Assembly: GCA_018266335.1 (NCBI GenBank)
Contig: JAFEAR010000114.1
Location: forward strand, 1 to 31,880
Direction: 5' to 3'
Length of the DNA: 31,880 bases
Origin: Bdellovibrionales bacterium
GTDB lineage: Bacteria > Bdellovibrionota > UBA2428
The notes below the pieces were generated by a model. The model saw only the letters and a program-made list of their open reading frames with translations, did no database searches and was not told the origin of the DNA. Positions 6,312 to 29,743 of the stretch are shown here, one piece after another. Each line of letters starts with the position of its first letter. Within the stretch, counting starts at the first letter, position 1. The position numbers and the translations under genes are program-made.

Positions 6312-7043
6312 TCATTGGACAGCTTGAAAGCCGCGTCCATCCCCCGTACGCCGATTGAAGCGGAAGAAGCGCTCGGTGGCAGCTTCGCTGGATGCTTCGC
6401 GCTGAATTTGCGCTGCCTGGAATGCCTGCTTACTCTGTAAATCGGCCAGGATCAACTGGCGCAGTTTCATGAGCTGCTGCACTTGTTGCTCGGCAATTTG
6501 ATTCGCCACTTGAATCGCCTTCATTCGACCGTCAGACGAGTTGGCCATTCCCCTTAGCTGCCGAAGGACCGCTTCCTCGTTCTGCATCTGTTGGCCTTGC
6601 AAGCCAGCAGCGCGAAGGGTTCCGAGAGTCGTATCCAAGCTGGTTTGCGACCAATTCTTGTAGTCGGTGAACCAGGCCCGCGCGTTGTAGCCCCATCCGC
6701 GGAATCGGTTGCGAAACTCCGTGTCGAGATTCGCCATGGAATAAGCCAGTGAACGGCCGCTTTGAACGATGCCGGCCAACTGTCCAATCTCCGCCATGAT
6801 CGGACCAAAGACTTGGAAGGGAAGTTCGGCGGTGTTCTTGGCCATGTCGAGAACCATCAGAATCTTTTGCCGCAATTCTTCGCCTTGGCGAATATATGTG
6901 GTGATCAATTGCAGATTGTTCGCCAGTTGGGTCCATTCCGTTGCGATGCCCGCCAGGACTCCAGCTTGCACCTGTCGCGCTCCAGGCAGGAAAAACGCCG
7001 CCGCCGTCAGCATCGCTGCACGACGTGAAACTTTCGCACTCAT
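6312..7043 (-). CDS. trbJ: TrbJ, VirB5-like periplasmic/minor pilus protein
   Basis: 243 aa, with a signal peptide (RRAAMLTAAAFFLPGARQVQA) ending near residue 27. The body is alpha-helical and coiled, typical of TrbJ, with the landmark FGPIMAEIGQLAGIVQSGRSLAYSMANLD and a Trp-rich segment RGWGYNARAWFTDYKNW. TrbJ/VirB5 proteins are exported and sit at the pilus tip or help its assembly. The ATG overlaps the TGA of trbE. The C-terminus FRFNRRTGDGRGFQAVQ is shared with the next protein. Confidence 0.92.
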   Translation of the reverse strand: MSAKVSRRAAMLTAAAFFLPGARQVQAGVLAGIATEWTQLANNLQLITTYIRQGEELRQKILMVLDMAKNTAELPFQVFGPIMAEIGQLAGIVQSGRSLAYSMANLDTEFRNRFRGWGYNARAWFTDYKNWSQTSLDTTLGTLRAAGLQGQQMQNEEAVLRQLRGMANSSDGRMKAIQVANQIAEQQVQQLMKLRQLILADLQSKQAFQAAQIQREASSEAATERFFRFNRRTGDGRGFQAVQ

Positions 7044-9472
7044 GCCAACACCCTCCTCTTCGGTTCATTCTGTTGATCCAGGTATTCAGCCCAATCGACT
7101 AAGCCCCGCATCCGGAGCCACTCCGCCGTCCAGTCGTCGCCGAAGTCCTCCATTGACTGCTCCGCAAGCTGGCGCTCTTCCCTGCTGCTGATGCCAACGA
7201 ACGAGAGTCCAACACCGCCCAAGCCCAGCGAGATCAGACGCCGACCGGCCGGAGAGACAACGTAGTAGTGCCGTTTGGGAATCGACTTCTGAATGATGTC
7301 TACTTCACGTTCATTCATCCCGATGGATTCGTAAAACTCGCGAGACGCTGGGTTCGCAGCCTCCGCGTTGGGCAGCAGCACCTTGGTGGGGCAGGATTCC
7401 AGGACCACATCGCGGATGGGCGAGTTGAAGATGTCTGAAAGGTTTTGAGTCGAGAGCAGAACGACGCCATTGAATTTGCGAAGCGTCTTCAGCCATTCGC
7501 GGACCCGCTCCCGGAACAGCGGATGCCTCAAGTAGACCCAGGCCTCATCGAGTGGCACCAGAGTTGGCGAACCATCCAGCCGCTTTTCGATGCGCCTGAA
7601 CAGATAAAGCAGCACTGCTACCACGGCTTTCTCGCCGAGGTTCATCAGATGCTCGGTCTCGAACGTGAGGAATCGACCCTCGCCGAGCATATCCTCCTCG
7701 GCATCGAGCAGATGCCCCATCGCTCCGCCCAGAGTGTAGTAGTGGAGTGCCTCGCGAATGTCGGTATCTTGCACATTGGCGCAAAGCTCCGTAAGCGTCC
7801 GCGTCGGGGAGTTCTGGAGGAGCAGCACCGCCTCCGTTAGCGCTTTGCGCTCTCGTGGGCCGATCTTGAAGTCCTGAAGAGTGCAAAGACTTTCGAGCCA
7901 ATCGACGGCCCAGGCCACGTCGGAAGCCGTGTCAATTTCCTTCAGCGGACAGAAAGCCCAGTGCGTTTTTTCCCCGCCGATGTCGTAGAACTCGCCCCCA
8001 GCCGCTTTGGTCAGCACAAAGAGTGAATAGCCTTTGTCGAATGCGAATACCTGGGCGCGCGGATAACGGAACCATTGCGCCGTCGTGAGACCTAGGAAGG
8101 TCGACTTTCCAGCACCCGGCGGTCCGATCATGAGCGTGTGGCCCAAATCGCCGACATGCAAATTGAAGCGGAATGGCGTCGCGCCGCTCGTTGCGGCATA
8201 AAGCAACGAGGGAGCATCGACAGGCATCAGCGGCGATGGGTTCTTCTTCTCTCCGGCCCACACGGCGGTGATAGGCATCATGTCCGCCAGATTGAGAGTG
8301 TGAAGGATAACCCGCCGAACATTCCTGTACCCGTCGCCCGGCAGGCTTCCACGCCAAGCCTCAACAGCATTGACACTTTCCACGCGGCAGGAGAACCCTA
8401 GGTTCTGAACTGTCTTCACGACCAGCGCCGCCGCTTCTTCGACCGAGACTTCTCGCTCGTGGAAACACAGAATAACCGTGTTGTAGACGCAGAACTGAAC
8501 ATCGCCGCAGCTTGCCACGCCCATGGCCTCTTCGGCATCCACGGCCATTTCCTGCGCGAATAGATTCACTGGGCCGTTCTCCGTTCGGAGCAGTTGGTCC
8601 TTCCAGCCTCGAATCTTCGCCCGCCACTTCCGCCGCGTCTTGTCGAGCAAACCGCGGGCTTCCTCTGGCTCAAGCAGAATGGCTCGGGTGTGCCAACGGT
8701 ATTCGATTGCGAGAGTATCGAGTGCTCCCAAGATGCCGGGGAAACTCAGCCGGGGAAACCCATCAATCGCGATCACGCGAATGTGCTTGCGCCCGATTCG
8801 CGGATTCATCCCGCCTACAAAATCGCGTGAGGCGAGGACATCGTTCAGATAGCTCGGAATCTGCGGCAATTGAATCGGGTGATCGGCTGCCGAGACACAA
8901 CGATGCAAGTATTGGAGCAACTCGTCACTGCGCGAGGTCCCAGACAAACGCTTTGCCTGAAACAGCGAAGCGAAGATATCCTCAAATGCACCCACGCGTC
9001 CCTTGAAATAATCGAGAGCTCTCAACGCGCTCGACTTCCATTCCCGCCGGCCTTCGAACATCCAGCCCTTTACACGCTCCTCACTTTCCTCCGGTGGCAG
9101 GTAGGTGAGGGCGATGTAGTAATCGCTTTCGTAGTGCGACCCTTCCAACGTGAACTGTTGCCGCCGCTCGTCGTCAATCAGCTTGGTAACCGCATCAGGG
9201 AATGCGTCGGCCTGGGGATAGTCAGGGGCCATCGAACGGATGGCGTCGCATTGGATCATCCACCCGCTCCCAAGCCGCAGAACTGAGTTCAGTCGCGCAC
9301 TCAGCGCCCCCATCTCGGAGTGCGTCGCGGAGGCCATATCCGGGCCGCGGAATGACCAGGCCGCGAGCATCGCCCCGTCCTGAAGCAACAAGACGCCGTC
9401 ATCCACCATGGAGTCATAGAGCAGCAGATCCGCCAAGCCTTGAATGCGGGAGCGATTCTCAGCAAGTTTCAT
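7040..9472 (-). CDS. trbE: TrbE, VirB4-family T4SS ATPase
   Basis: 810 aa. The N-terminal half is the CagE/TrbE/VirB domain (LADLLLYDSMVDDGVLLLQDGAMLAAW onward). The C-terminal ATPase has Walker A GPPGAGKST near residue 450 and Walker B LVPLDEAW near residue 642, followed by the RKFNGVVLLSTQNLSDI motif. It energises pilus biogenesis and substrate transfer at the inner membrane. The frame stays open to 9655, but the ATG at 9472 has GGAGGT 5 nt before it, begins with the family N-terminus, and is two bases after the trbD stop. Confidence 0.97.
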   Translation of the reverse strand: MKLAENRSRIQGLADLLLYDSMVDDGVLLLQDGAMLAAWSFRGPDMASATHSEMGALSARLNSVLRLGSGWMIQCDAIRSMAPDYPQADAFPDAVTKLIDDERRQQFTLEGSHYESDYYIALTYLPPEESEERVKGWMFEGRREWKSSALRALDYFKGRVGAFEDIFASLFQAKRLSGTSRSDELLQYLHRCVSAADHPIQLPQIPSYLNDVLASRDFVGGMNPRIGRKHIRVIAIDGFPRLSFPGILGALDTLAIEYRWHTRAILLEPEEARGLLDKTRRKWRAKIRGWKDQLLRTENGPVNLFAQEMAVDAEEAMGVASCGDVQFCVYNTVILCFHEREVSVEEAAALVVKTVQNLGFSCRVESVNAVEAWRGSLPGDGYRNVRRVILHTLNLADMMPITAVWAGEKKNPSPLMPVDAPSLLYAATSGATPFRFNLHVGDLGHTLMIGPPGAGKSTFLGLTTAQWFRYPRAQVFAFDKGYSLFVLTKAAGGEFYDIGGEKTHWAFCPLKEIDTASDVAWAVDWLESLCTLQDFKIGPRERKALTEAVLLLQNSPTRTLTELCANVQDTDIREALHYYTLGGAMGHLLDAEEDMLGEGRFLTFETEHLMNLGEKAVVAVLLYLFRRIEKRLDGSPTLVPLDEAWVYLRHPLFRERVREWLKTLRKFNGVVLLSTQNLSDIFNSPIRDVVLESCPTKVLLPNAEAANPASREFYESIGMNEREVDIIQKSIPKRHYYVVSPAGRRLISLGLGGVGLSFVGISSREERQLAEQSMEDFGDDWTAEWLRMRGLVDWAEYLDQQNEPKRRVLA

Positions 9473-9474
9473 CG

Positions 9475-9786
9475 TTACCTCCAACGCCTTGGGATTGAGG
9501 CCGTCTCGCGACCAATTGACCCTTTGGCTGGGTAGAAGGGACGATACTGGACATGCCGCAGGTAGACTTGCCGCATCATCGGGTCCGACCGCCCCATCCG
9601 CGAAAGCACCGCGACGGCCGCGATCCACAGAGAGATCCCGGCCACCACACCCCACCAGGTCACAAGCGCGAAGATCAACATCGCCGATAGCAAGGCCGCG
9701 AACAAGACCAACTCTCGGTCACCGCCGAGCAACAAGTGCGGGCGGTTTGCGGATTGATGAATGACGATCTCGCGTGGCGTCTCCAT
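9475..9786 (-). CDS. trbD: TrbD, VirB3-like inner-membrane protein
   Basis: 103 aa. The conserved N-terminus IVIHQSANRPHLLLGGDRELVLFAALLSAML leads into two close membrane spans (about residues 27-60). The second half includes RSDPMMRQVYLRHVQYRPFYPA, the TrbD signature. It works with TrbE (VirB3-VirB4 pair) in pilus assembly. It lies 7 nt after trbC and 2 nt before trbE. Confidence 0.94.
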   Translation of the reverse strand: METPREIVIHQSANRPHLLLGGDRELVLFAALLSAMLIFALVTWWGVVAGISLWIAAVAVLSRMGRSDPMMRQVYLRHVQYRPFYPAKGSIGRETASIPRRWR

Positions 9787-13518: not shown

Positions 13519-13550
13519 AGCATAGACCCTAGACCTAGGTCCAGGGTCAA
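13519..13550 (-). promoter_or_regulatory. MerR-type promoter with stretched spacer
   Basis: On the minus strand, TTGACC (-35, 13550-13545) and TATGCT (-10, 13524-13519) are separated by 20 bp. The spacer carries the near-perfect palindrome GACCCTGGACC-TAGG-type centred at 13536. An overlong spacer filled by a dyad is the hallmark of MerR-activated promoters. The predicted transcription start falls at or next to the merR ATG. Confidence 0.8.
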
Positions 13551-13611
13551 GCGAAAGTTTCGCGATTGCTGATCGGCGCGACACCGGAGTCATTCTTGCC
13601 GGCGGAGCGTA

Positions 13612-17546: not shown

Positions 17547-17966
17547 CCGAAACAGCATCGATTTGAAGTCCTCATCACAAACGATCAAATGAACGCAGCC
17601 CGAAAGGCTGCACATGCCCGTGGATTTGATTCCGTGTCGGCGCTCGTGCGGACGCTCTTGGAACAAGACCTTCGGCAGGCCTCGCAGCACGACCAACTGG
17701 AGTCTTCCGTCGCGGCCAGCATCGAACGCATGGCCAAGGAAATCCGTCGGCTCCATAACGCCCACCAGGCTCTGTTCGCACTGACTGACAGCCTGGTTCG
17801 ACTGTTCCTCACCTGCACACCCGAACCTTCGCCCGAGGCGCTCGATGCCACCAAACGCCGTGCGAAGCTTCGCTATGACCGATTCATGCTTTCGGTCGCA
17901 CAGAACATGACGGGAGATTCCAAGTCGGCCTTGATCGATGTATTGAAGGGAGCTTCGGATGTCTGA
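17544..17966 (+). CDS. Relaxosome accessory protein, RHH type (TraJ/MobC-like)
   Basis: 140 aa. The N-terminus MPKQHRFEVLITNDQMNAARKAAHARGFDSVSALVRTLLEQDL is a ribbon-helix-helix pattern. A helical middle (SIERMAKEIRRLHNAHQALFALTDSLVRLFLT) and a C-terminal helix follow. It overlaps the relaxase gene by 8 nt. In IncP and Ti systems the equivalent small protein binds oriT and loads the relaxase. The frame is open from 17472, but the ATG at 17544 is preferred: it has GGGTGG 7 nt upstream and leaves the palindromes at 17504-17525 non-coding. Confidence 0.8.
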   Translation: MPKQHRFEVLITNDQMNAARKAAHARGFDSVSALVRTLLEQDLRQASQHDQLESSVAASIERMAKEIRRLHNAHQALFALTDSLVRLFLTCTPEPSPEALDATKRRAKLRYDRFMLSVAQNMTGDSKSALIDVLKGASDV

Positions 17967-18945
17967 AGAAGCAGCGATCAAGCTCCGCCCACGCCAGCCG
18001 AGATTCGTCCGGGACGAGAGCAAATCGTGGTCCAGTGCATTCAAAGGCCTGATGCGGATCGCACGCATGACGAGCAGTCGGAAGCCCTCATCCAGCACTA
18101 GCTCCGCGGCTCGGCCCCGCAAGGCACACAAACAACGCTGCGCGATCCGCGTCACCTACTCCCCGAACCAAGTGCGCGGCCAGTGGGCTGCCCATGGCCG
18201 GTACATTGCTCGTGAAAGCGCGAATAGCGAAGGCGTTGGATTCACCGCCGAGAGGGAGAACGTCGCCATTGCGGCAGAACTTGGGGATTGGCAGAAAGCC
18301 GGTGACCCGAGGATGTTCAAGATGATCGTCTCTCCAGAATTTGGGGAGAGACTGGATCTCAAGCGGCATACTCGCGACCTGATGACGCGGCTTGGGAGCG
18401 AGCTAAACGTTCAATTGGATTGGGTAGCGGTGGCTCACTTCAACACCGGCCATCCGCACGTCCACATCGCCCTGCGGGGCGTAACTGCCCTTGGCAACCT
18501 CCGCATTCCTCGGGATGTGATCAAACATTCAATTCGGAATCACGCCGAGGACCTCTGCACGGAACAACTTGGATTTCGCACCATCGGTGACGCCATCGAA
18601 TCCGGACGCAGAGAAATCAACGCTCTAAATGTGACCAACCTCGACCGTGAGCTGGCTCGCAAGATGCGCCCAACATCAGAGGAATGGGGATCAATTCAAA
18701 CGCCTGAGCCCAATGGGTCAGAGTTGCGGCGAGTACAGGCTTCTCAACTTCAGGCGCGACTTGGTGTTCTCGCCAAACTGGACCTCGCGCGTCCCAACCC
18801 GGGTGGGCATTGGGATCTCCAGACCGATTTCCATCAAAAGCTTTGCGCGCTCCAGAACGCGAATGATCGTCAGCGGAGCCGACCGAACAAGATGACGTCA
18901 TCTGCGCCAGACCGGGAGAACGTGAAACAGAGCAGGCCTAGATAG
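17959..18945 (+). CDS. VirD2/MOBP-like relaxase, compact form
   Basis: 328 aa. Motif I has HGRYIARES with probable nicking tyrosine Tyr82. Motif III is HFNTGHPHVHIALRG (His160, His165, His167, His169), the metal-binding histidines that give the HUH-type active site. The segment between (MIVSPEFGERLDLKRHTRDLMTRLGSELNVQLDWVAVAHF) is typical of the VirD2-like relaxases that carry a DUF3363 C-terminal domain. Here that domain is missing: only about 150 residues follow motif III, ending in a basic tail. AGGGAG precedes the ATG. The protein nicks oriT and pilots the strand to the coupling protein at 27668. Confidence 0.9.
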   Translation: MSEEAAIKLRPRQPRFVRDESKSWSSAFKGLMRIARMTSSRKPSSSTSSAARPRKAHKQRCAIRVTYSPNQVRGQWAAHGRYIARESANSEGVGFTAERENVAIAAELGDWQKAGDPRMFKMIVSPEFGERLDLKRHTRDLMTRLGSELNVQLDWVAVAHFNTGHPHVHIALRGVTALGNLRIPRDVIKHSIRNHAEDLCTEQLGFRTIGDAIESGRREINALNVTNLDRELARKMRPTSEEWGSIQTPEPNGSELRRVQASQLQARLGVLAKLDLARPNPGGHWDLQTDFHQKLCALQNANDRQRSRPNKMTSSAPDRENVKQSRPR

Positions 18946-19159
18946 AGTTGTTCACGGCCTTCAGAAAACGTATTTTTCTGAGCACGAGACCGAGAGTCTG
19001 TGGAGCTTGAGGCGAAGGTGCTGTCGGGAGCCCCTCCGAACTCGATGGCCTTTCCGCCGCATTGTTACTTGTAGTGTAGTTCGAAAGTTTTCCCACAGGC
19101 ACCTCGGGCGACGGAGAGCAGGGTACGGCTCAAGTTCATCCTCGCGCTACTCAGAGAAT
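18946..19159. other. Intergenic region between relaxase and the metal island, with an A/T hairpin
   Basis: TCAGAAAA (18961-18968) and TTTTCTGA (18974-18981) form a perfect 8-bp inverted repeat with a 5-nt loop, 15 nt after the relaxase stop. It sits between convergent genes and may terminate transcription from both sides. The rest of the 214 bp holds no gene I can support. Confidence 0.5.
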
Positions 19160-19582
19160 TTACGAACCAAATTTCATCAGAAGTGGGCCCAGTAGATAGG
19201 CGCTGAAGAGCCCGACGCAGTACAGGCAGGCCGAGATCCATAGGACCGACCGGCTGAGCGTGCTCACTTCTTCGCAAGCTTCGGGGGTATCCACGGGACA
19301 GGCGGCTCCTCCGGATCGGAGCTTTGGCGCAAGCATGTATGTGTAAGCGAAGTTTCCCCCGATTAGGATTCCGGAGATGAGGAACACCCAGTTCTTATGG
19401 TGAGACAGAGTGACAAGCCACGGCACGGCAGAAAGAAAGCTTGCAACCGTCGCCCCCAGTCCGAGGAGGACTAGGAGCGACGGAAGAGCACAGCATAAGA
19501 GTGTTCCGAACGAAGTGAAAAGCGAAAGGTAGTTTAGAAGGGCACCCCGGCTCTGGGTGCCTATGGTGCCAATGTCTGCCAT
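19160..19582 (-). CDS. MerT-like metal transport protein
   Basis: 140 aa with four hydrophobic segments. The first carries the vicinal pair LLCC (Cys30-Cys31) followed by ALPSLLVLLGLGATVASFLSAVPWL, the MerT/MerC-type metal path. A periplasm-facing loop contains ACPVDTPEACEEV (two cysteines), and the last span contains ISACLYCVGLFSAYLLGPLL. It begins 2 nt after the HMA protein gene, with AAGGA at a good distance. Together they look like a MerP/MerT pair passing a soft metal ion inward. Similarity to classical MerT is partial, so substrate is inferred. Confidence 0.78.
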   Translation of the reverse strand: MADIGTIGTQSRGALLNYLSLFTSFGTLLCCALPSLLVLLGLGATVASFLSAVPWLVTLSHHKNWVFLISGILIGGNFAYTYMLAPKLRSGGAACPVDTPEACEEVSTLSRSVLWISACLYCVGLFSAYLLGPLLMKFGS

Positions 19583-19584
19583 CT

Positions 19585-20082
19585 TTAACGTCCTTTCTCG
19601 ATCCCTCGAACCTGGAGGGGCACGGCCGCTTTGGAATCTTTCTGCGGCGTAAGGCTTCCTTGAATGGTCAGAGACTTTGCGGCCTGGCCTCGTACCTCTT
19701 CAAGGGCCTTGGGGTTTTTCGGATCGGATGCGAGGTCAAAGAGTTGATTCGAGCCAGTCACTTTGAACTTTCCTCCCAGTATTTCTCCCCGAACAATAAC
19801 GATGGTCTCTTTCGGCGTAAAACCGTTCTTCTGAACTGTCTGCCAGAAGTCCTCTAGGCGTAGTGTGTTTCCGGGTTTCAGTTTCACTGCGGCAAGCCCT
19901 TTGTTGAGGCTCACATCGACGGTTTCTACTCCTGGCATCTTTTTGATTGCTCCGCGCACGGCGAAGGCGCAGGTCATTCAATCCATGCCAAAGATCGAAA
20001 GGTCCATCTGGAGGAACTCTGCTCGAACGGGAGCGACACTCGCGAGAAGCACGATGATAAATACGGATAAAGTTCGTTTCAT
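19585..20082 (-). CDS. Secreted HMA (MerP-like) protein, probable selenoprotein with Sec35 encoded by TGA
   Basis: 165 aa when read through an in-frame TGA at 19980-19978. The ATG at 20082 starts a signal peptide MKRTLSVFIIVLLASVAPVRA. The mature protein continues with FLQMDLSIFGMD, then TGA, then MTCAFAVRGAIKKMPGVETVDVSL. Read as selenocysteine, the motif is GMD-U-MT-C, exactly GMxCxxC with the first metal-binding Cys replaced. The HMA fold follows, then an extension of about 90 residues (IVIVRGEILGGKFKVTG onward) of unknown function. Conventional calling would start at the ATG directly after the TGA and lose signal peptide and motif. Signal peptide, frame continuity, exact Cys replacement and a SECIS-like hairpin support Sec; a nonsense mutation of TGC/TGT is the alternative. 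Confidence 0.82.
19950..19980 (-). promoter_or_regulatory. Candidate bacterial SECIS element immediately after the in-frame TGA
   Basis: Counting from the base after TGA, nucleotides 12-17 (CUUCGC) pair with 23-28 (GCGGAG would be read as G-C-G-G-A-G) with one U-G wobble. They close a 5-nt loop C-G-U-G-C at 18-22, with G at position 2 of the loop and G-U following. Loop distance of 17 nt from UGA equals that in E. coli fdhF and meets the known bacterial rule (apical loop 16-37 nt away, G within its first two bases). Confidence 0.7.
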
Positions 20083-20092
20083 GGTCATTCTC

Positions 20093-20941
20093 CTAGAAGA
20101 AATACGCGAAGTTCAGTGCAAACCGAACACGCTCGCGAGGATAGATGGGCGAGCTTTCTCGGTACACCGGAAACTGAATGCCGGCCGAGACGGCGATGTT
20201 TTTGTAAACTCCCAATGTGGTGGGGCCGAGAAAGACCTGGTGGCTGTCGCTGCCCCTGAGCTTCAGCCTGGAATGCTGGAGGTTCCCTGAACGCTCGCCG
20301 GTCATCTCCGCAAAGATCCTCCAATCCCAGCCGGTATCGGTCCGCCATGACGGCGGCCGGTAAGCATAGGAGAGAGTGTAGAAAAGAAGATCCGGCCGGC
20401 GATCTCCGTCATTCGCTGAGTAGCGCTGATACGTAGCACCTGCCCAGGCGTAATGACTTCTAGAAGCGATTCCCGTCACCGCTCCGACAAGCGCACCGGG
20501 CCCGCTCTTAATGCCTCTGAGCGGCCCTCCGGCATCTTGGGGGCTTGGCAGAAGAACGCCTCCGATTGCGGCGCTTTCAAAACGAGAGCCGACGCCTGTG
20601 TCCTTGCGGTGGAATCTCCATATCGCTGTACCTTCGAAATCTCCGCTCATTGAGGTGAACGCCGACATCCGTGACGGGTAGAAGGGCTCAGTCTTGAAAC
20701 TGACCGGGGCCGATACAGCAACTTTGAAGTTCTCAGTTATGCCATACCCGAGTGCCGGCCGGAACATCACGCCGCTGCCGTTTCCAGCTCGGCCCATGAG
20801 GTTGAAGTCCAAACTCCAACCTCCTTTGGGATTGGTCGGCGTGGCTAGGCCAAAAACTGGCCCATGGCCAGAGGCATGAAGGGGCTGCAAAGAACCGTCC
20901 AACGCCATCGCGATTAGGACGGGGAATATCATTTGTCTCAT
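20093..20941 (-). CDS. Outer-membrane beta-barrel protein of the metal island
   Basis: 282 aa with signal peptide (MRQMIFPVLIAMALDGSLQPLHA). Alternating hydrophobic strands follow (WSLDFNLMGRAGNGSGVMFRPALGYGITENFKVAVSAPVSF, then HYAWAGATYQRYSA, DLLFYTLSYAYRPP, WDWRIFAEMTGERSG). The C-terminus RVRFALNFAYFF ends in Phe, the BAM recognition signature. It resembles the putative transporter barrels (Phenol_MetA_deg-like) often seen beside metal genes. It lies 10 nt upstream of the HMA selenoprotein gene and is probably co-transcribed. Possible role: outer-membrane passage of a metal or its complex; unproven. GGAGAG lies upstream of the ATG. Confidence 0.75.
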   Translation of the reverse strand: MRQMIFPVLIAMALDGSLQPLHASGHGPVFGLATPTNPKGGWSLDFNLMGRAGNGSGVMFRPALGYGITENFKVAVSAPVSFKTEPFYPSRMSAFTSMSGDFEGTAIWRFHRKDTGVGSRFESAAIGGVLLPSPQDAGGPLRGIKSGPGALVGAVTGIASRSHYAWAGATYQRYSANDGDRRPDLLFYTLSYAYRPPSWRTDTGWDWRIFAEMTGERSGNLQHSRLKLRGSDSHQVFLGPTTLGVYKNIAVSAGIQFPVYRESSPIYPRERVRFALNFAYFF

Positions 20942-21044
20942 AGCTTATTTCTCTCCTGCCTGTGCGCGTGCAAAGGCTAATTCGTGACGTAACAAACCAA
21001 AGCAGCATCGCTGCTGAGCAAGTCCGTGAGCAGGGGAGAGAATG

Positions 21045-21410
21045 CTAGATGATGAGCGTAGAGTGAAGGAGGTTCAGATCCGGAGGGGAGTGGTCAGAGC
21101 CCAGTGTTTGGATTCGCGGTGCTTCCGAACCGGGTCCAAGCACCGTAGAAAAAAGGATTGTGCTGTCTAAACCCTCTGCAACGGCCAATTCCGCGTGAGC
21201 AGCGCCAAGCTCCTGCAGCTCCAACGGCATTTGCTTGCACTCTTTAACGGGAGCGTTTTTTGTAGGCCGTTCGCACCGGCCATCTTTTTTGCAGCAGCTC
21301 TTTTCAGCCTTCGCGAACATGAAGAACTGAGGGCAGGAGATGCAGCCGCCCCACAGTAGCGTCAGTACCATGAGCAATGAGAGCACCGAATTGGCAAGCG
21401 CCTGGAGCAC
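21045..21410 (-). CDS. Secreted/anchored Cys-rich protein, paralogue of the gene at 25182
   Basis: 121 aa starting at GTG with GAAGG 8 nt upstream. One hydrophobic segment (SVLSLLMVLTLLWGG) is followed by a Cys cluster: GCISCPQFFMF, then EKSCCKKDGRCERP, then VKECKQMP. It ends SPPDLNLLHSTLII. No known enzyme domain. Hydrophobic start, Cys cluster and hydrophobic terminal strand are shared with the protein at 25182. LLWGGC could be a degenerate lipobox. Context between TonB receptor and outer-membrane barrel suggests metal binding in the envelope. Confidence 0.6.
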   Translation of the reverse strand: MLQALANSVLSLLMVLTLLWGGCISCPQFFMFAKAEKSCCKKDGRCERPTKNAPVKECKQMPLELQELGAAHAELAVAEGLDSTILFSTVLGPGSEAPRIQTLGSDHSPPDLNLLHSTLII

Positions 21411-21458
21411 GGTTTCTGCCTTCAGAATACCAGTTTAGAAGACCTCTGAACCGGGCGA

Positions 21459-23594
21459 TCAATACTGCAATCGGATGCCGCCATTAAAAACGCGCCCATC
21501 TAAAGGTGCCCATGCATCAACGGTCCACCGACCATCTGCTCCGCGATCGGGTCGGAGGAGTGAATTCCAGCGGGTCTGCCGAATATTCGAAAGGTTTTCA
21601 GCGTTGATAAACAGCTTGAACCGGCCGACCTTCCGCTCGGCAAGGGCCCCAAAAACCACATAAGCCTTTGATTCTGACCGGTATGGGTTCTCTTCCAGTC
21701 TTTGATTTCCGGTGTAGTAGGATTCGAGGCCAATGCGGCCTTTGTTTTCCTTCTCCCACATTGCTGTGATGCCGGCACTGTGGCGGGGGGTCAACGGAAC
21801 GTCTACTCGTTGCCCGTATTCGAATTCTCGTGCTTGAACGTAGGTGTAGCTTGCCGTGACGGAAAAAGGAGCTTTCCTTAAGGTACTGAGGACTTCAAAG
21901 CCCACATTGTCCGTTGGTGCAGAGAGATTTCTCAGCTCGTAAACGCCCTGGCGTAGAACATCGATGGGATTTCGAACGTTTGAAGCAAACACCGTCACGG
22001 TGTGGGAGGTCGGTCCAATCTTGCGCGTCAGATCGAGGGAAGCACTCCGGCCGCGTTCAGCAAGAAGCGGCACGGGGATGGAAAGACGAGATAACCCCGC
22101 GGCTTCCGTTTCCTCCGTCAGTGGGGTCGGAGCAAAAAATCCCTGACCAACGGAAAGCCGACTGGTCCATCCTTCCCATCTAAATAGCGCCGCAAGTCTT
22201 GGACTAAAAAACGTTCCATAGCGATTGTGAAAATCGACGCGTGCACTAGCGGAAACGGAAAGCCATGAAGCGATCGCAATGTCGTCTTGAACGAAGAGCC
22301 CAGGCGTCACATAGACGTATCGGAAGCGGGGCACATCTCGGGGAACGTATGCTTCCCGCTCGGCTGCCGCGCCCACAACCCAAGTATGCTGACGGTAAGT
22401 ACCGCGGGCCGAGACTTCGCCGAAGAGCATCTCGTGACGGTCGCTCTCAGTAATTTCACCGAACTGGTGCCGGTGGTTCTGCGACGAAGCTGCAACGCGA
22501 GCGGTCAAAACATATTTCTGGTTAACTATCGACTGAAAGATGCCACCGAAATCATAGCGCCTGGTGTCTAGGGCTTCCGTATATGGAACGCCTGCTGCGC
22601 GAAGCGTTTCTCCAGGCATGGTTCCGCCATTACGGTTTTCATATGTGACACCGCCTGTAAGAAAGGCGGTCTTTCCGTCTCCGTTATCCCAAAAAACTCG
22701 CGGTCGGATAACCGCCCGAGAATACCCAGCGAGATCAGCCCATCCGTCTTTATCAATGTCTCTTTGTTCCTGCCAATGGCCGCCCGTCAGAAGAGTCCCG
22801 CTCCACTTGGATGAAAGTTTAGAACCGAAGAACGCAGAAGCATCGGTCGCGCCAAGAGTCGAGCGATTGAGAAGAAAATCGTAAACGGGTTCATCGCCTG
22901 GCCGGCGAGCAATCAGGTTCACCACGCCTCCCATCGCTCCCGCTCCATACAGTGCAGACGAGACTCCTTTGATGACTTCAACCTGGCCAAGGTCCATCGG
23001 TGGAATTTGCAAGATACCAAGTCCACCTCCCTGCTGGCCAAAAAGTGGAAGTCCGTCCGAGAGAAAGCGTGTATAGCGTCCGCGCATTCCTTGAATCCGA
23101 ACACTCGCAGCACCCAGCGCCGGCGAAGTTGTTTGGACACGAAGCCCGCCCATTTCGTTTAGCATCATCGTGATGTCTCCAGGCGTCATGAGCATTTTTT
23201 CTTCAATCTCTTCCCGGTTCAGCACCTCAACACGGGTCGGAAGATCTTGAAGCCTGGTATCCGTCCGCGTTGCAAATACCGTTACCTCTTCTCCCTCATG
23301 CGCTTCCGGTTGAAGCTCGACCTGGATTTGCCATTCGCGGGCTTCGTTCGCGATTAGTGAAGCGGTCGCCGGGAAGAATCCTTCCTTCTTCACCGTCACA
23401 GTAATTATTCCCAGTGGAACTGAGGCTCTCGCGATTCCCTGAATGTCCGTGCCAACCACGGCACCGTTCACGTGCACCGCTGCCTTTTCCACCGCTACGG
23501 AATTCGTTTTTACCTCAACGCTGATGGTGGCTTGTGGTGTTTGGGAGTTCGCAAGCGTGGCCATGACCACAACAAGAGTGAATAGCTTAAGCAT
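21459..23594 (-). CDS. TonB-dependent outer-membrane receptor with N-terminal carboxypeptidase-like domain
   Basis: 711 aa. Signal peptide MLKLFTLVVVMATLANSQ is followed by a carboxypeptidase regulatory-like beta-sandwich (about 22-105, VAVEKAAVHVNGAVVGTDIQGIARASVPLG). A TonB-box-like EEVTVFATRT, a plug domain (LPTRVEVLNREEIEE to ALYGAGAMGGVVNLIARR) and a 22-stranded barrel ending in GGIRLQY with terminal aromatic complete it. It imports a substrate using TonB energy; metal chelate is likely from the neighbours, but the ligand is not readable. The frame reaches 23651 (GTG right after the transporter stop), yet the ATG at 23594 starts the signal peptide. Neither has a good ribosome binding site. 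Confidence 0.9.
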   Translation of the reverse strand: MLKLFTLVVVMATLANSQTPQATISVEVKTNSVAVEKAAVHVNGAVVGTDIQGIARASVPLGIITVTVKKEGFFPATASLIANEAREWQIQVELQPEAHEGEEVTVFATRTDTRLQDLPTRVEVLNREEIEEKMLMTPGDITMMLNEMGGLRVQTTSPALGAASVRIQGMRGRYTRFLSDGLPLFGQQGGGLGILQIPPMDLGQVEVIKGVSSALYGAGAMGGVVNLIARRPGDEPVYDFLLNRSTLGATDASAFFGSKLSSKWSGTLLTGGHWQEQRDIDKDGWADLAGYSRAVIRPRVFWDNGDGKTAFLTGGVTYENRNGGTMPGETLRAAGVPYTEALDTRRYDFGGIFQSIVNQKYVLTARVAASSQNHRHQFGEITESDRHEMLFGEVSARGTYRQHTWVVGAAAEREAYVPRDVPRFRYVYVTPGLFVQDDIAIASWLSVSASARVDFHNRYGTFFSPRLAALFRWEGWTSRLSVGQGFFAPTPLTEETEAAGLSRLSIPVPLLAERGRSASLDLTRKIGPTSHTVTVFASNVRNPIDVLRQGVYELRNLSAPTDNVGFEVLSTLRKAPFSVTASYTYVQAREFEYGQRVDVPLTPRHSAGITAMWEKENKGRIGLESYYTGNQRLEENPYRSESKAYVVFGALAERKVGRFKLFINAENLSNIRQTRWNSLLRPDRGADGRWTVDAWAPLDGRVFNGGIRLQY

Positions 23595-23651
23595 TGTGGA
23601 TGAGGAGAGGAGATTGGAGAGCCTACTCAGCGGCGGAAGATCGAAGAGCAC

Positions 23652-24296
23652 TCAGTGACACTGGCCCTCTCCGCAGCCGCAAGATTTTCCTTGCAGCGCT
23701 TCGATTCCTTCCTTCCCGATGATCGGCACCATGATCAGCGCAGACACCGGGTCGGCCCACCATAAGCCAAATGCCGCATTGAGAATAAGCCCGCCCAACA
23801 GGATGGCCGACAAGTATGTGCAAAGCTCGGTTTGTTTTGCGTCTGCCGTCATCGCGGCACTTCCGATGCTTTGGGCGACCTTTTGTTTAGCTCTCGCAAG
23901 GAGCGGCATTACGATAAGCGAAAGAACGGCCAGGATGATGCCGGGAACGCTGCGCTCCGGGGCTTCTCTGGACAACAGCATCGTTATCGAATCGTAGGCA
24001 ACATAAAGAGCAAGGGCGATGAACGAAGCGCCAACGATCTTAAGCGCCTTCTGTTCGATTACTTCTCTTCGTTCCTCGTCGTGGTCTCCGTGTAATCGCC
24101 AGAGGAGAGTCGCACCTGAGGTGACTTCAATCAAACTGTCAAAACCAAAACCGACCAGGGCGACGCTGCCGGTTAAGGAACCGGAAGCAATCGCGATAAT
24201 GCCCTCAAGGCTATTCCACACAATGGTGAAGTGCTCGAGGCGCTTTCCGCGCTCGACTGTTTCTGATCGCGTAAGGGGAGCCGTAATCGTATTCAC
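23652..24296 (-). CDS. Cation-diffusion-facilitator-like transporter with Cys/His tail
   Basis: 214 aa. The membrane domain of the CDF family has about six spans. VALVGFGFDSLIEVTSGATLLW contains the Asp metal site of span II, and LARAKQKVAQSIGSAAMTADAKQTELCTYLSAILLGG is the conserved span V region with Asp near ADAKQT. The usual cytoplasmic C-terminal domain is missing; instead the protein ends GKSCGCGEGQCH, a likely metal ligand. The start codon overlaps the MerR stop (ATGA), so MerR probably controls this exporter or importer. Zn, Cd, Pb or Hg cannot be told apart from sequence alone. Confidence 0.85.
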   Translation of the reverse strand: MNTITAPLTRSETVERGKRLEHFTIVWNSLEGIIAIASGSLTGSVALVGFGFDSLIEVTSGATLLWRLHGDHDEERREVIEQKALKIVGASFIALALYVAYDSITMLLSREAPERSVPGIILAVLSLIVMPLLARAKQKVAQSIGSAAMTADAKQTELCTYLSAILLGGLILNAAFGLWWADPVSALIMVPIIGKEGIEALQGKSCGCGEGQCH

Positions 24297-24703
24297 GAGA
24301 TCTGCTCCGTGTCGAGGCTTTCCAAAATCGGGCAGTCCGTAACAGTACAGTGACCGTCACAGGAATCTTTCATGCGGACAAGCGTTCGCTTGATCGCTTG
24401 AAGATGCTGAATCTTCTGCTCGACTTCTCTGGTTCTTGCCTCGATTTGGCGGACTACGTCCCCGCACAATTGATCAGGGTCAACCTTGAGCTGAAGTAGC
24501 TCTTGGATCTCACTGAGAGAGAACCCTAGCTCCTGGGCACGTTTAATGAAGCGGAGCCGATGAACGGCACTTGGACCATAGGCGCGGTGACCGGACGTCT
24601 TACGGGGCGGCGGCGGAATGAGACCTTCGCGCTCGTAGTAGCGGATGGTTTCGAGATTTACGCCGCCGCGTGCCGCAAGCTGTCCGATAGTCAGGGTCTC
24701 CAT
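24293..24703 (-). CDS. MerR-family metal regulator, second copy (MerR/PbrR type)
   Basis: 136 aa from ATG 24703 (METLTIGQLAARGGVNLETIRYYEREGLIPPPPR). Cys80, Cys115 and Cys124 have the same 35/9 spacing as Hg-sensing MerR, with an additional Cys119 in DSCDGHCTVTDCPIL. That extra Cys and the TVTDCPIL ending also occur in lead/cadmium regulators, so the inducer may be Hg, Pb or Cd. About half of the residues match the merR at 13099; they are paralogues in two separate cargo modules. The frame is open to 24742 but that would include the promoter. Confidence 0.85.
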   Translation of the reverse strand: METLTIGQLAARGGVNLETIRYYEREGLIPPPPRKTSGHRAYGPSAVHRLRFIKRAQELGFSLSEIQELLQLKVDPDQLCGDVVRQIEARTREVEQKIQHLQAIKRTLVRMKDSCDGHCTVTDCPILESLDTEQIS

Positions 24704-24711
24704 CTGCTTCC

Positions 24712-24742
24712 AGTCTAAAACCCGTACTAAACTACGGGTCAA
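24712..24742 (-). promoter_or_regulatory. MerR-type promoter with 19-bp spacer
   Basis: Minus strand TTGACC (24742-24737) and TAGACT (24717-24712) are 19 bp apart. The dyad ACCCGTA-N6-TACGGGT lies between them. The expected transcription start is only a few bases from the ATG at 24703, so the message would be nearly leaderless, as for the other merR. Confidence 0.82.
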
Positions 24743-24814
24743 GGAAATTTTTAGGGAGCAGACTGAGAACCAGTGGAAGTGAGACGGGCGACCTCCCGTC
24801 TCACCTGCCCGTGA

Positions 24815-25084
24815 CTAGCAGCAGCGATGTGCCGTTTCTGTTTGGACTGGCGGTTTTGTGCCTGGATAGTCCCGACCGAACTTGGCCTTAAACCACTGGT
24901 TCATATAGCTGCTATTGGAAGCCTCGCGTTGAGAGGGCTTACCGGTGCAGCACTTCGAGCTACAGTAGCTCTGCGCTGAGCAACACGAATGCTCCGTTGA
25001 TTCTTGTCCGAAGCTTGCGTCCGCACCGACCGTCAGGAATCCAAATAAAAGTGCGGCAAGCGCACTGCGATTGATCGATTTCAT
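24815..25084 (-). CDS. Small secreted Cys-rich protein with CC motifs
   Basis: 89 aa. Signal peptide MKSINRSALAALLFGFLTVGADASFG precedes a compact cluster: HSCCSAQSYCSSKCC (five of its six cysteines in two CC pairs plus a single). A polar middle follows with YMNQWFKAKFGRDYPGTKPPV and the last residues are HRCC. AAAGGAG lies 7 nt before the ATG. I do not recognise a family. Nine thiols or so in 60 mature residues point to periplasmic soft-metal binding. It lies upstream of the second merR but separated from it by the MerR promoter. Confidence 0.65.
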   Translation of the reverse strand: MKSINRSALAALLFGFLTVGADASFGQESTEHSCCSAQSYCSSKCCTGKPSQREASNSSYMNQWFKAKFGRDYPGTKPPVQTETAHRCC

Positions 25085-25181
25085 GATGTTTCTCCTTTGA
25101 ACTGTTCGTCTTGCACAAATGTTGAGACACGAGTGGTTCGGCCCCGCAGTGGGGCTGAAAAACTTGTCAAACAAAGAAGAA

Positions 25182-25550
25182 TCAGATGAGGAGAACGCGA
25201 TTGAAGAGGTAGAGGGGACCTGAATCAGCCTCTCTCGTCAGGGCAACCGAGAGAGCATGTGCCTCTGAGAACGAAGGATGAATGAGGGTTGATGGCTGTA
25301 CCGCGGGTATCAGCGCATTCGTCAGGACCTTGATGGCTAGGTCGGATGTTTTTTCGACCGTGTAAGGACAAATGAGGATACATGCAGACACCGGGCAGCT
25401 ATTCGGCCGGTGCTGCTTGTCGGCGGGACAGTGCGAGCAGGATTCGGACTGCACGTCGGCCGACGTCATCAGCGGACAGCTAAACGCACTGCTGATGCCC
25501 GGCAGGCCGAAAAGCAGGGCAGTTATCGTAAATGTGAAGAGTGCCCTCAT
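25182..25550 (-). CDS. Secreted Cys-rich protein, paralogue of the gene at 21045
   Basis: 122 aa from ATG 25550, which starts signal peptide MRALFTFTITALLFGLPGISSA. The next part is FSCPLMTSADVQSESCSHCPAD, then SCPVSACILICPY, seven cysteines in total. The end is SGPLYLFNRVLLI. It shares layout with the protein at 21045: SCP after the hydrophobic stretch, Cys cluster, a PSTL/SEA middle and a closing L-x-L-x4-L-x-I strand. Another in-frame ATG at 25595 is possible; neither has a clear ribosome binding site. It is the first gene of the minus-strand metal island. Confidence 0.55.
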   Translation of the reverse strand: MRALFTFTITALLFGLPGISSAFSCPLMTSADVQSESCSHCPADKQHRPNSCPVSACILICPYTVEKTSDLAIKVLTNALIPAVQPSTLIHPSFSEAHALSVALTREADSGPLYLFNRVLLI

Positions 25551-26050
25551 CACTAGATAAGACGTGGCTCCTCGAGTTTTGGTCTCGGTCGTCATCAACA
25601 ATTCGGGGTGTCTTTGGAGCGAAGTTCGTGCTTCACCTTTCGAGGGCCCTATGTAGCGAGGGATACCGCTCAAGGAAAACGTTGAAGGTGAATTCTTGCG
25701 CTCAGCCGTCCGCCGCTCCGTGTATCGCCCCCTCCACCAATTCTCTGACGATCGTGTCGGTGAGGTTCACGCCGTCCTCATTCAAGGCATTGAGATTGTT
25801 AACTGGGTGCCGACCACGCGAATTAGCTCTGTCCGCCCTCGAACTGCCAGAGATGATTTCTTCAGGCGTATGTTCCAGGAGCATGCGATTTATGTCCGTG
25901 TGACCTCAATTCGCCACGAGGTCGGTTGCCGCAAGTACATTCCTTCTTGAGAATTGCGCTATTGAGCCATTCCTGTCATGCATGAACAACCTGGGACCTT
26001 CTACCCGGCTCAAGCATGAATTTCTAAGATCGTTGCGACTACATCGGACC
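25551..26050. other. 500-bp region without a supported gene
   Basis: This lies between divergent units (metal island to the left, ardC operon to the right). Short open frames exist on both strands (plus 25696-25950, 84 codons; minus 25702-25884, 60 codons whose product ends VNLTDTIVRELVEGAIHG), none with a good ribosome binding site or a family match. It may contain a decayed gene. The right part (from about 25950) has lower GC and leads into the promoter at 26057. Confidence 0.35.
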
Positions 26051-26112
26051 GCTAGCTTGACAACAAGGGCAACTGAGGGCATACTCTGGACATGCTAGCT
26101 TGTACAGGCTAG
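26051..26112 (+). promoter_or_regulatory. Sigma-70-like promoter with operator for the acidic protein-ardC-traG operon
   Basis: TTGACA (26057-26062) and CATACT (26080-26085) are separated by 17 bp. GCTAGCTTG overlaps the -35 (26051-26059), and CTAGCTTGTACAGGCTAG (26095-26112), an imperfect 18-bp palindrome with the shared core, lies at the expected transcription start. Binding there would block transcription. Confidence 0.7.
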
Positions 26113-26120
26113 ATACGCCC

Positions 26121-26255
26121 ATGGAAGACACCACAAATCAACTACCCGACACCGATCACGATACCCCAGCAGAAGAGGATAAGGGTCTCGACCCCGTCCT
26201 CGGCTCGGGCTTCGAGGAAGAGCAACCCGAAACAGACTTCGACGAAAGGATCTGA
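26121..26255 (+). CDS. 44-aa strongly acidic protein, first gene of the ardC operon
   Basis: MEDTTNQLPDTDHDTPAEED leads into a protein with about 17 Asp/Glu and only two basic side chains (Lys21, Arg43), ending FEEEQPETDFDERI. It starts just after the operator and ends 3 nt before the ardC ATG, so it is positioned as a translated gene. No family is recognised. Its net charge and place beside ArdC would suit a DNA mimic or an adaptor peptide, which is speculative. It could also be a leader peptide that couples translation of ardC. Confidence 0.5.
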   Translation: MEDTTNQLPDTDHDTPAEEDKGLDPVLGSGFEEEQPETDFDERI

Positions 26256-27667: not shown

Positions 27668-29743
27668 ATGCCGCGCGAACCAAAGGTCTATCGAACACCG
27701 CCCGACCCCGGTTTCGTCGGCGGCTATAACTGGCCAGCCATGCTGACCGGCCTGGGACTGCTCCTAGTTGTGAACATAGCGGCCACCCAGTTCGTGGCCT
27801 ACCAATTTCGCTACCACGCTGCGCTCGGAGCGCCGCTCCTTATACGCTCGGGCCACGCCATTTACCAGCCAACGGCTTGGGCGTTTTGGCTCCTTCAACA
27901 CAGCAACACCACCAGCCTTCAAGTAAAGCAGCCGCTTCTCGCGGGAGCCCTTGTGGTCGTCGTCGGGTCGGCCATCACGGTCATGATCGTCTATGGACTC
28001 AATCTGAGGCGCGCCCGCCGTCTTTCGGCAAACACGGAGGACTTGCATGGTTCCGCTCGGTGGGCAAGTGCGTCCGACATTCAGGCAACTGGGCTGCTCG
28101 AATCCAACCAGGGCGTTTACGTCGGTGGGTGGCTCAATCCCTCTACGCGGCATCTCCACTATCTTCGCCACAATGGCCCCGAGCACGTGCTCGCGTTCGC
28201 TCCCACGCGAAGCGGCAAAGGCATCGGGTTAGTCATTCCTACCTTGCTCGCTTGGTCCGAATCGGCGGTGGTTTACGACATCAAGGGTGAGAACTGGGCG
28301 CGCACCGCAGGCTTCCGGGTAAAGGCTGGTCATCTTTGTTTTAAGTTCTCACCGGTGGAAGTGGCTAACGGTTCCCGCTTCAATCCGCTTGCCGAAGTGC
28401 GAATCGGCACACCACGCGACGTGTCCGACGCCCAAAACGTCGCCGACATGATCGTCCGCACCGGTGAAGACAGCCCGATGGAGCGCTACTGGCAAGACGC
28501 AGCGGCCTCAATCACCACTGGCATGATTCTGCACGTTTGTTACGCGGCAGCGGCAGCCGGCAAGGAAGCAAGTCTCGGAGACCTCGCCGCTACTTTCACT
28601 AGACCGGGCCAAAGCTTCCGCGACACCCTGAACGAACTCGAGAACTTTCCACACGACCCGCAGCGCAACCACCAATGGATGACCCCGGACGGCGAACGAA
28701 CCACAACTCACCCCGTCGTTCGAGAAAAGGTTCGCGAGATGCTGGACAAGGAGGACAAGGACTTCTCCGGGGTCCTATCCACCGCTAAGACCGCCCTCAC
28801 TCTCTACAGCGATCCCATCGTCGCGAAGAACACTGCCGCCAGCGACTTTACGATCGACGATCTGGTCAACCACGTGCGGCCCGTCTCGCTTTATCTGGTC
28901 GTACCGCCCTCGGATAAGATCCGGCTTCGCCCACTGATCCGCCTCATCTTCACGATGATCGTCAACCGGCTGACAGAACGGATGGACTTCCAAGGCGCCG
29001 CTCAGAAGCGCAATCGCCACCGGCTCTTGTTCATGGTTGATGAGTTCCCATCGCTGAAGCGGATGGAGATCTTCGCCGACGCTCTGTCCTACATGGCCGG
29101 TTACGGTTTGAAGGCGTACCTCATCACGCAGGACATCCGGCAGATCGTCGATGAGTACGGCCCCAACGAGAGCATCGTCTCCAACTGCCACGTCCGCGTC
29201 GCGTACGCGCCGAACCAGTTCGACACCGCGGAACTGCTCTCAAAGATGACCGGGACGAAGACTATCCAAAAAGCAACATTCAATTTCTCAGGTTCCCGTT
29301 TGGCGCCTATCGCGAATCACATGAGCGCGACAGTGGATCAAGTCGAGCGTCCTCTCGTAACTCCGGACGAAGTGATGCGTCTGAAGCCGCCGAAGAAGAC
29401 CGGCCAAGGTTCCAACGAACGTATCGTCGCGCCCGGCGACATGCTGATCTTCGTCAGCGGTCACCATCCGATCTATGGGACCCAGATTCTCTATTTCACG
29501 GACCCCGTCCTAAAGGACCGTGCCGAGATTCCTCCGCCGACCACATTCCTAGCCATCGGCGAGGCCGGCATTGAACCGCAGTTGCCACCAAATCGAACCC
29601 GCAACGTCATCAGCCGCGCGGAATTCGTCCCACAATCCCCAATGGAAGCTGCCTTTTTAGCCGAACTGAATGGCGCAGTGCCAACAAAGCCCGGCTTCAT
29701 TGAGCAGCTCGACTTGGATCTTCACGAAGAAAGGAAGGACTGA
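27668..29743 (+). CDS. traG: TraG/VirD4 type IV coupling protein
   Basis: 691 aa. Two N-terminal membrane spans (about 20-40 and 95-112) precede the ATPase. Walker A is APTRSGKGIG near residue 180, VVYDIKGENW follows, and Walker B is LLFMVDEFPSL near residue 458. The C-terminal HVRVAYAPNQFDTAELLSKMTGTKT is the conserved TraG segment. It links the relaxosome (relaxase at 17959) to the trb channel. It begins 11 nt after ardC. The family usually sits beside the relaxase; here it is separated from it by the metal island, suggesting insertion of cargo between the two halves. Confidence 0.96.
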   Translation: MPREPKVYRTPPDPGFVGGYNWPAMLTGLGLLLVVNIAATQFVAYQFRYHAALGAPLLIRSGHAIYQPTAWAFWLLQHSNTTSLQVKQPLLAGALVVVVGSAITVMIVYGLNLRRARRLSANTEDLHGSARWASASDIQATGLLESNQGVYVGGWLNPSTRHLHYLRHNGPEHVLAFAPTRSGKGIGLVIPTLLAWSESAVVYDIKGENWARTAGFRVKAGHLCFKFSPVEVANGSRFNPLAEVRIGTPRDVSDAQNVADMIVRTGEDSPMERYWQDAAASITTGMILHVCYAAAAAGKEASLGDLAATFTRPGQSFRDTLNELENFPHDPQRNHQWMTPDGERTTTHPVVREKVREMLDKEDKDFSGVLSTAKTALTLYSDPIVAKNTAASDFTIDDLVNHVRPVSLYLVVPPSDKIRLRPLIRLIFTMIVNRLTERMDFQGAAQKRNRHRLLFMVDEFPSLKRMEIFADALSYMAGYGLKAYLITQDIRQIVDEYGPNESIVSNCHVRVAYAPNQFDTAELLSKMTGTKTIQKATFNFSGSRLAPIANHMSATVDQVERPLVTPDEVMRLKPPKKTGQGSNERIVAPGDMLIFVSGHHPIYGTQILYFTDPVLKDRAEIPPPTTFLAIGEAGIEPQLPPNRTRNVISRAEFVPQSPMEAAFLAELNGAVPTKPGFIEQLDLDLHEERKD

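Follow-up and report, generated by a model that had tools for sequence, protein, structure and literature searches.

A predicted Sec-x-x-Cys HMA protein with a covarying SECIS-like hairpin, likely encoded in the cargo of a conjugative element

Introduction

Does the single in-frame TGA of a minus-strand gene for an HMA-domain protein end translation or encode selenocysteine (Sec), and what would the resulting protein do? This question is raised by the window, the stretch of 31,880 nucleotides of DNA that was analysed here, for which the original prediction had proposed a probable Sec in a secreted MerP-like metal chaperone. The best explanation, to which a probability of roughly 0.8 is assigned, is that the UGA is a Sec codon and that the gene encodes a predicted secreted Sec-x-x-Cys chaperone, likely handing a soft metal to the adjacent MerT-like protein. 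Decoding of the UGA as Sec is in itself highly probable, and a metal relay, once Sec is granted, is probable.

Structure of the Sec-HMA gene and its product

Direct reading of the minus strand from 20082 to 19585 places a predicted signal peptide, an HMA domain and an OB-like domain in one frame that is interrupted by the TGA alone (Table 1). The proposal that signal peptide and HMA domain are one frame is thereby upheld, with the signal peptide recognised by eye and the Pfam HMA model (PF00403) running across the TGA and passing its cut-off when the TGA is given as Cys (45.9 bits against 24.8). The TGA also stands where it had been placed, at the first Cys of GMxCxxC, which reads GMD-TGA-MTC around codon 35; Cys occupies this site in one full-length database relative (P0032) and in 11 genes of the CxxC kind. 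The AGGAG motif preceding the full-length ATG falls where the upstream porin-like gene ends.

In an AlphaFold model (49 sequences; mean pLDDT 80.4, values below 50 for residues 1-19), a part resembling HMA precedes another small beta domain. Among solved structures, MerP 1osd comes closest to the whole model (E 1.2e-4), and CopZ 6ff2 is next. Modelled alone, the C-terminal part reached a mean pLDDT of 82.5 and showed weak likeness to OB-fold domains and YgiW (best E 0.03).

Table 1. Coordinates of the Sec-HMA gene, its predicted elements and neighbouring genes in the window
Feature	Position	Strand	Remarks
Sec-HMA protein gene	19585..20082	-	165 codons from ATG to stop, single in-frame TGA
TGA codon 35	19978..19980	-	predicted selenocysteine, first HMA-motif ligand (GMD-U-MTC)
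Predicted signal peptide, residues 1-21	20020..20082	-	by eye: hydrophobic core, ends APVRA
HMA domain, residues 28-88	19819..20001	-	Pfam PF00403; nearest solved fold MerP 1osd
C-terminal OB-like domain, residues 89-162	19597..19818	-	weak structural matches: OB-fold domains, YgiW
AGGAG, Shine-Dalgarno-like	20090..20094	-	7 nt before full-length ATG
Predicted bacterial SECIS hairpin	19950..19966	-	6-bp stem, loop CGUGC, 17 nt after TGA; covariation
MerT-like membrane protein	19160..19582	-	Cys-Cys in first hydrophobic stretch, second Cys pair in later loop
Predicted outer-membrane (porin-like) protein	20093..20941	-	conserved neighbour; barrel inferred by eye
Small Cys-rich protein	21045..21410	-	GGCxxCPQFF motif
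TonB-dependent receptor	21459..23651	-	Pfam profile search
Cation diffusion facilitator (Cation_efflux)	23652..24296	-	Pfam profile search
MerR-family regulator	24293..24742	-	best model TIGR02051 MerR, 134.3 bits, below cut-off 150.85
VirB4/TrbE-type conjugation ATPase	7040..9655	-	searched with 7040-9457
Relaxase	17959..18945	+	backbone common to related elements ends here
Type IV coupling protein (TraG/VirD4)	27668..29743	+	

Relatives with TGA or Cys at the ligand column

A search of 5.8 billion proteins returned 397 relatives of the Sec-HMA protein at E up to 1e-3. Among the 120 of these that were listed, all of them metagenome proteins compared at the protein level, 117 have as their first residue exactly number 36, encoded directly behind the TGA; two others start at a later position, and the remaining one, the full-length P0032, has the sequence GMDCMTC. 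Automatic annotation does, as had been anticipated, start after the TGA; this includes the database protein P0102 (120 aa), which starts right after the TGA codon and belongs to L001, a Bryobacterales MAG. Both L001 and L002, a Bryobacteraceae MAG, have TGA at the same codon as the window gene. Viral contigs contained no relative of the Sec-HMA protein, and the plasmid collection yielded five Shinella records at 35% identity.

Overlapping genome sets were searched, comprising 399 genomes of the class, 257 of the order and 396 of the phylum of L002's genome, and 40 of another order. Classified by the DNA of the strongest genome matches, the relatives listed fall into three kinds that share one layout, namely UxxC (TGA followed by Cys), UxxU (TGA at both positions) and CxxC. 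The main UxxC set holds 21 sequences, the window included, the other 20 genes coming from 19 genomes, and the close CxxC set (GMDC...) holds 11 sequences from 10 genomes. Genes split over two contigs (G119, G415) were counted once each, G086 was dropped as a repeat of G005's contig, and G044, an odd UxxC paralogue, entered the genome counts and was excluded when hairpins were counted. Further TGA matches lie outside these counts, for instance G234, G249, G124, G346 and G369, and G875 and G537 lie outside the classification. A group of 14 'distant' genomes is made up of five in which the Cys motif was read (G386, G191, G071, G283, G254) and of matches without stops.

In the alignment, the same codon is TGA in all 20 further UxxC genes and TGC or TGT in the 11 close CxxC genes, so that the homologue comparison proposed with the original prediction gave TGA or Cys in this column. 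Genes of the UxxC kind occur in at least 10 of the 257 genomes of the order (E up to 1e-12, motifs checked), with a patchy distribution. Upstream of the TGA, substitution is codon-like, with 59% of changes at third positions in 19 of the 21 UxxC sequences, a count that leaves out G119, which has no upstream sequence, and one of G603's two copies.

Two sets of relatives have further peculiarities. At the G603 locus (L177), two UxxC genes occupy opposite strands with about 3 kb between them; the locus also holds genes for MerR, MerT-like and porin-like proteins, as well as one for a flavin disulfide oxidoreductase that is distantly like glutathione reductase and MerA. The UxxU sister group (L051-L068, e.g. 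L055, L058 and L053) combines two TGA codons with the same HMA-plus-C-terminal layout, and in many of its members two successive hairpins fold after the TGAs, as if one SECIS served each UGA.

A covarying hairpin downstream of the TGA

The stem-loop with bacterial SECIS geometry described in the original prediction is present. Counting the T of the TGA as 1, columns 15-20 pair with columns 26-31 around a loop at 21-25, and one of the six window pairs is a G-U wobble. The bSECIS rule, in the form given in PMC13188914, asks for a loop of 3-9 nt, a stem of 4-16 bp, a G in the first two loop positions, a distance of 16-37 nt from the UGA and a minimum free energy at or below -7.5 kcal/mol. The geometry of the window hairpin satisfies this rule with its loop CGUGC, 6 bp and 17 nt.

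Conservation of the hairpin, which was to be checked among homologues, is pronounced: 123 of 126 possible pairs are formed in the 21 UxxC sequences and 18 of the 21 hairpins are complete, against a synonymous-codon null with a mean of 85.6 pairs (maximum 99) and of 1.3 complete hairpins (maximum 6) in 3000 redraws. Similarly, the loop starts with CGTG in 21/21 UxxC sequences, against a null mean of 2.8 and a maximum of 9 (3000 redraws). The Cys forms lack the hairpin, with 32 of 66 pairs in the CxxC sequences, below their own expectation of 40.2 (2000 redraws). Across the 20 distinct rows of the alignment, two-sided changes are found in five of the six pairs, 16 cells in all. The covariation score of 0.476, compared with 0.192 +/- 0.032 in shuffles, was reached by 0/500 of these, and shifting the partner by 1 to 3 columns gave scores of at most 0.132. 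Two of the five covariation measures were less striking, as the number of pairs changed on both sides was reached by 6/500 shuffles and the number of pair types by 75/500. Some of the changes in the hairpin alter amino acids as well (Ala..Arg/Ser to Ile..Asp/His or Val..Asn), and protein and RNA vary together.

Thermodynamic folding of the window, also proposed as a check, did not bear the prediction out. The 61-nt stretch folds no better than shuffles (z -0.14), and the best fold that keeps the hairpin has -7.2 kcal/mol, narrowly missing the limit of -7.5, while the minimum-energy fold is a different one at -13.4 kcal/mol. As isolated 19-mers, 13/21 UxxC sequences reach the limit of -7.5 kcal/mol. 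The pair probability of the hairpin is 0.00 in the window, G108 and G121, at least 0.5 in 15/21 UxxC sequences and above 0.19 in none of the 11 CxxC sequences. The competing fold of the window uses nt 1-15, and a ribosome standing at the UGA would probably cover these nucleotides. Since plain folding fails for the window, the SECIS case rests on the covariation and the codon-preserving null. Rfam models at gathering thresholds and the tRNA scan found nothing in the window.

Sec machinery in genomes of relatives

The presence of Sec machinery, a check proposed with the original prediction, was assessed in relatives, namely in 36 genomes with TGA forms, 20 of them UxxC, with a SelB match at E up to 1e-60 and a tRNA-Sec score above 55 bits as criteria. 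The latter line was drawn by the authors in the gap between 52 and 58 bits; the Rfam cut-off is 47. SelB was found in 33/36 TGA genomes and tRNA-Sec in 31/36, and the corresponding numbers for the UxxC genomes are 18/20 and 19/20. At least one of the two was present in 35/36 TGA genomes and 20/20 UxxC genomes, and both in 29/36. No SelB match was found in 3/36 TGA genomes and no strong tRNA-Sec match in 5/36, G316 having neither, and in G213 SelB appears as two pieces under the curated cut-off. ARAGORN assigned a TCA anticodon to the two tRNA-Sec checked.

The close CxxC genomes have SelB in 0/10 cases and tRNA-Sec above 55 bits in 1/10 (G093, 58.6 bits). Fisher's exact test of SelB, 33/36 versus 0/10, gives 7e-8, a value that overstates independence as the genomes are related; the 10 close CxxC genomes may form one clade and thus not represent 10 independent events. 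Lowering the tRNA-Sec line to Rfam's 47 bits lets two more close CxxC genomes pass (G217, 48.5 bits; G202, 47.2 bits). Matches of this strength also accompany a strong tRNA-Sec in many genomes, and the 48.9-bit match of G002 is a tRNA-Ser according to ARAGORN. G093 itself carries two Cys forms (L086, L161) alongside its tRNA-Sec match and has no SelB match; this tRNA-Sec is possibly a relict of lost Sec decoding.

Distant relatives without TGA come from genomes with both SelB and tRNA-Sec (14/14), and Cys-type relatives are therefore not confined to hosts that lack Sec decoding. At five of the distant loci (G386, G191, G254, G432, G454), no porin-like and MerT-like neighbours were found, which makes these loci look like another branch.

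Operon and neighbouring metal genes

The porin-like protein is the most constant partner of the HMA gene. When the neighbours of the window gene were compared with the other loci by tblastn, a porin-like gene was found near the HMA gene in 19/20 UxxC genomes and a MerT-like gene in 14/20, counts that include contigs ending at this place and loci with a different gene order (G603, G639, G044). Both genes are present in 9/9 close CxxC loci examined, while the UxxU loci have the porin-like gene in 0/7 cases and the MerT-like gene, weakly, in 1/7. One Cys-form locus, G335, repeats most of the window cassette, with MerT-like, HMA, porin-like, CDF, TonB receptor (61% identity) and MerR genes; adjacent to these lie another MerR, a DF-family protein and a MerP that passes its NCBIfam cut-off. 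The window's porin-like protein (20093-20941) has no Pfam match.

Pfam searches of the window's MerT-like protein gave no match to MerT (PF02411) at E up to 0.01 and no other match, and in its relatives PF02411 stayed below the cut-off in L069 (14.6 versus 32.9 bits) and gave no match in L177. Over the Cys-Cys stretch, the protein aligns to the window's own MerTP (hhalign E 1.2e-4, probability 54%). Both Cys pairs are kept in 8/9 aligned sequences; the ninth is distant and was taken from a later start. Among its 120 listed relatives, 35 bear the JGI name 'mercuric ion transport protein', and 12 others appear as hypothetical protein.

A first metal cassette of the element (12183-13593) encodes MerR, a Cys-containing MerT-HMA fusion (GMTCAAC) and, in an apparent Cys form, a DF-family (seleno)protein (NF049942, 92.5 bits over a cut-off of 70). 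With the Sec gene in the second cassette, the element carries both Cys-type and Sec-type HMA proteins. A metal-sensitive transcriptional repressor (PF02583) lies at 84-509, near the left end of the window.

A predicted conjugative element with probable variable cargo

The window contains T4SS genes, a relaxase, a coupling protein, and ArdC and KfrB domains. VirB4 is at least 93% identical in 8/257 genomes of the order, and 8/8 of these have SelB and tRNA-Sec; G065, with a VirB4 of 89% identity, has neither. Alignment with G339 and G512 (82-88%) covers the backbone between 0.8 or 0.2 kb and 11.8 kb and again between 14.5 and 18.9 kb. It breaks off where the relaxase ends, and other genes take over, which in G512 form a different metal cassette. 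G336 keeps 0-12.1 and 12.2-14.8 kb, where its contig ends. The comparison covers the left junction side, with about 4 kb (G339) and about 7 kb (G512) visible between the relaxase and the contig end. The simplest interpretation treats the two metal cassettes of the window, at 11.8-14.5 kb and at about 19-25 kb, as variable cargo. The Sec gene lies in the latter, a likely cargo segment of a T4SS element. With different genes in each related element (window, 18946-26258; L189, 16624-19901; L192, 16645-19901), the site that follows the relaxase resembles a hot spot for cargo.

Alternative explanations

The alternative that survives best, although less likely than not, accepts Sec and metal binding and assigns the protein to Cu(I) (or Ag, Cd), with the porin-like protein and the TonB receptor serving uptake or export rather than mercury handling. 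It draws on the model scores of the window protein, which are higher for the best CopZ model (45.1 bits) than for the MerP model (36.1 bits), both below cut-off, on the JGI name 'copper chaperone CopZ' given to many of the 120 listed relatives, and on the CDF-type exporter of the cassette; in addition, no mercuric reductase was recognised by eye in the window's list of ORFs. Mercury is favoured by the JGI names of 35 of the 120 listed relatives of the MerT-like neighbour, by the MerR regulator, whose best model, albeit below cut-off, is the mercury one, and by the G335 cluster with its MerP over the cut-off. We infer that Hg(II) is the first candidate metal; Cu(I), its main rival, or another soft metal would fit nearly as well.

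A clearly less probable alternative also takes Sec as real and sees a periplasmic thiol/selenol redox protein instead of a metal carrier. UxxC is also a redox motif, and the Cys pair of HMA proteins can be oxidised, the best structural match 1osd being titled oxidised MerP; the HMA fold, the GMD-x-x-x-C motif, the MerT-like neighbour with its Cys pairs, and MerR and CDF in the same cassette argue against this alternative.

That the TGA is a true stop, separating a short leader with the signal peptide from a cytoplasmic 130-aa protein that starts at the ATG right after it, is very improbable. This is the database version, since 117 of the 120 listed relatives have been annotated from that point on, and an ATG directly follows the TGA in 9/21 UxxC sequences. 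It is, however, absent from the other 12/21, and in the window gene the internal ATG lacks a Shine-Dalgarno-like motif in front of it, whereas the full-length ATG is preceded by AGGAG; stop and internal restart were rejected on these two grounds. Moreover, the HMA domain spans the site, the Cys homologues (P0032 and 11 CxxC genes) are continuous and the hairpin covaries. Finally, a decaying pseudogene or a sequencing error has a negligible probability. One related copy (G533) does lose family similarity about 28 codons after the TGA, but the conserved column already contradicts this explanation: the same TGA recurs in 20 further genes from 19 genomes, which makes the sequencing error named as a possible refutation of the original prediction very unlikely, and change upstream is biased to third positions.

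Proposed mechanism and significance

The Sec reading of the window gene is thus supported, and with it a metal relay can be outlined, which draws on the chemistry of MerT and MerP and on the affinity of selenium for mercury. With the ribosome positioned at the UGA, the hairpin would be bound by SelB, and the predicted protein would be exported to the periplasm, where its selenolate-thiolate pair would take a metal that had crossed the outer membrane via the porin-like protein or the TonB receptor. The metal would then be passed to the Cys pairs of the MerT-like protein, with MerR switching the operon on, and the segment with the Sec gene would travel as cargo of the conjugative element. Since the protein needs Sec decoding, a full-length product is expected only in Sec-decoding hosts, and such decoding is presumed for the window's own host. 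A broader, tentative proposal is that the conjugative element carries, as exchangeable cargo, a complete outer-to-inner-membrane relay for soft metals with a Sec-x-x-Cys periplasmic clamp, a natural use of selenium-mercury chemistry for trafficking; UGA recoding would limit its working host range to Sec-decoding bacteria, and a Cys-for-Sec form of the operon would occur in lineages without SelB.

The truncation of most listed relatives at the TGA codon, together with the name 'copper chaperone CopZ' on many of them, suggests that a selenoprotein family with hundreds of database relatives is likely hidden. Two questions become testable with this family: what a metal chaperone gains from selenium apart from redox chemistry, and whether the need for recoding restricts horizontal transfer.

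Comparison with known systems

Sec-containing HMA proteins as such are already known. The UxxU metal-binding (seleno)protein NF041115, tabulated as metal-binding protein / putative mercuric reductase in PMC13188914, also has an HMA-type domain with Sec at ligand positions. Its model covers 74 positions and gives the window protein 42.3 bits against a cut-off of 95; the window protein departs from NF041115 in its UxxC motif, its predicted signal peptide and the OB-like domain at its C-terminus. In the Global Ocean Sampling study (PMC2398784), Table 2 includes a selenoprotein 'Mercuric transport protein MerP' as a previously described family, with 2 selenoprotein sequences from 1 sample and 0 Cys homologues in those samples, and the same 2008 table also has a 'putative mercuric transport protein'. 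Judged by its table entry, the marine MerP resembles the window protein in containing Sec (PMC2398784).

The MerT/CopZ fusion-like heavy metal transport selenoprotein NF045683 combines, by its name, a MerT-like part, HMA and selenium; it is a fusion model, whereas HMA and MerT-like proteins are separate genes in the operon described here, and it is absent from the NCBIfam matches of the window protein at E up to 0.01. MerP (TIGR02052 / 1osd), the HMA protein of mercury systems, offers the nearest solved fold; here, the window protein scores 36.1 bits against a cut-off of 92.55 and differs in its TGA for the first Cys and in its extra C-terminal domain. The window protein and six relatives scanned, two each of the UxxU, UxxC and CxxC kinds, remain below every NCBIfam cut-off, and among the papers listed in literature searches none on the window's Sec-HMA protein family was noticed.

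As Sec-HMA proteins are known and no NCBIfam cut-off was reached, the window protein is filed as a variant of the known Sec-HMA proteins. Judged from sequence, it would represent an unnamed UxxC family of two-domain proteins that are predicted to be secreted and are encoded in an operon with porin-like and MerT-like genes. Compared with the Sec-HMA proteins listed earlier, new features are the comparison of UxxC and CxxC forms within one conserved operon, the covariation-supported SECIS and the link to mobile DNA.
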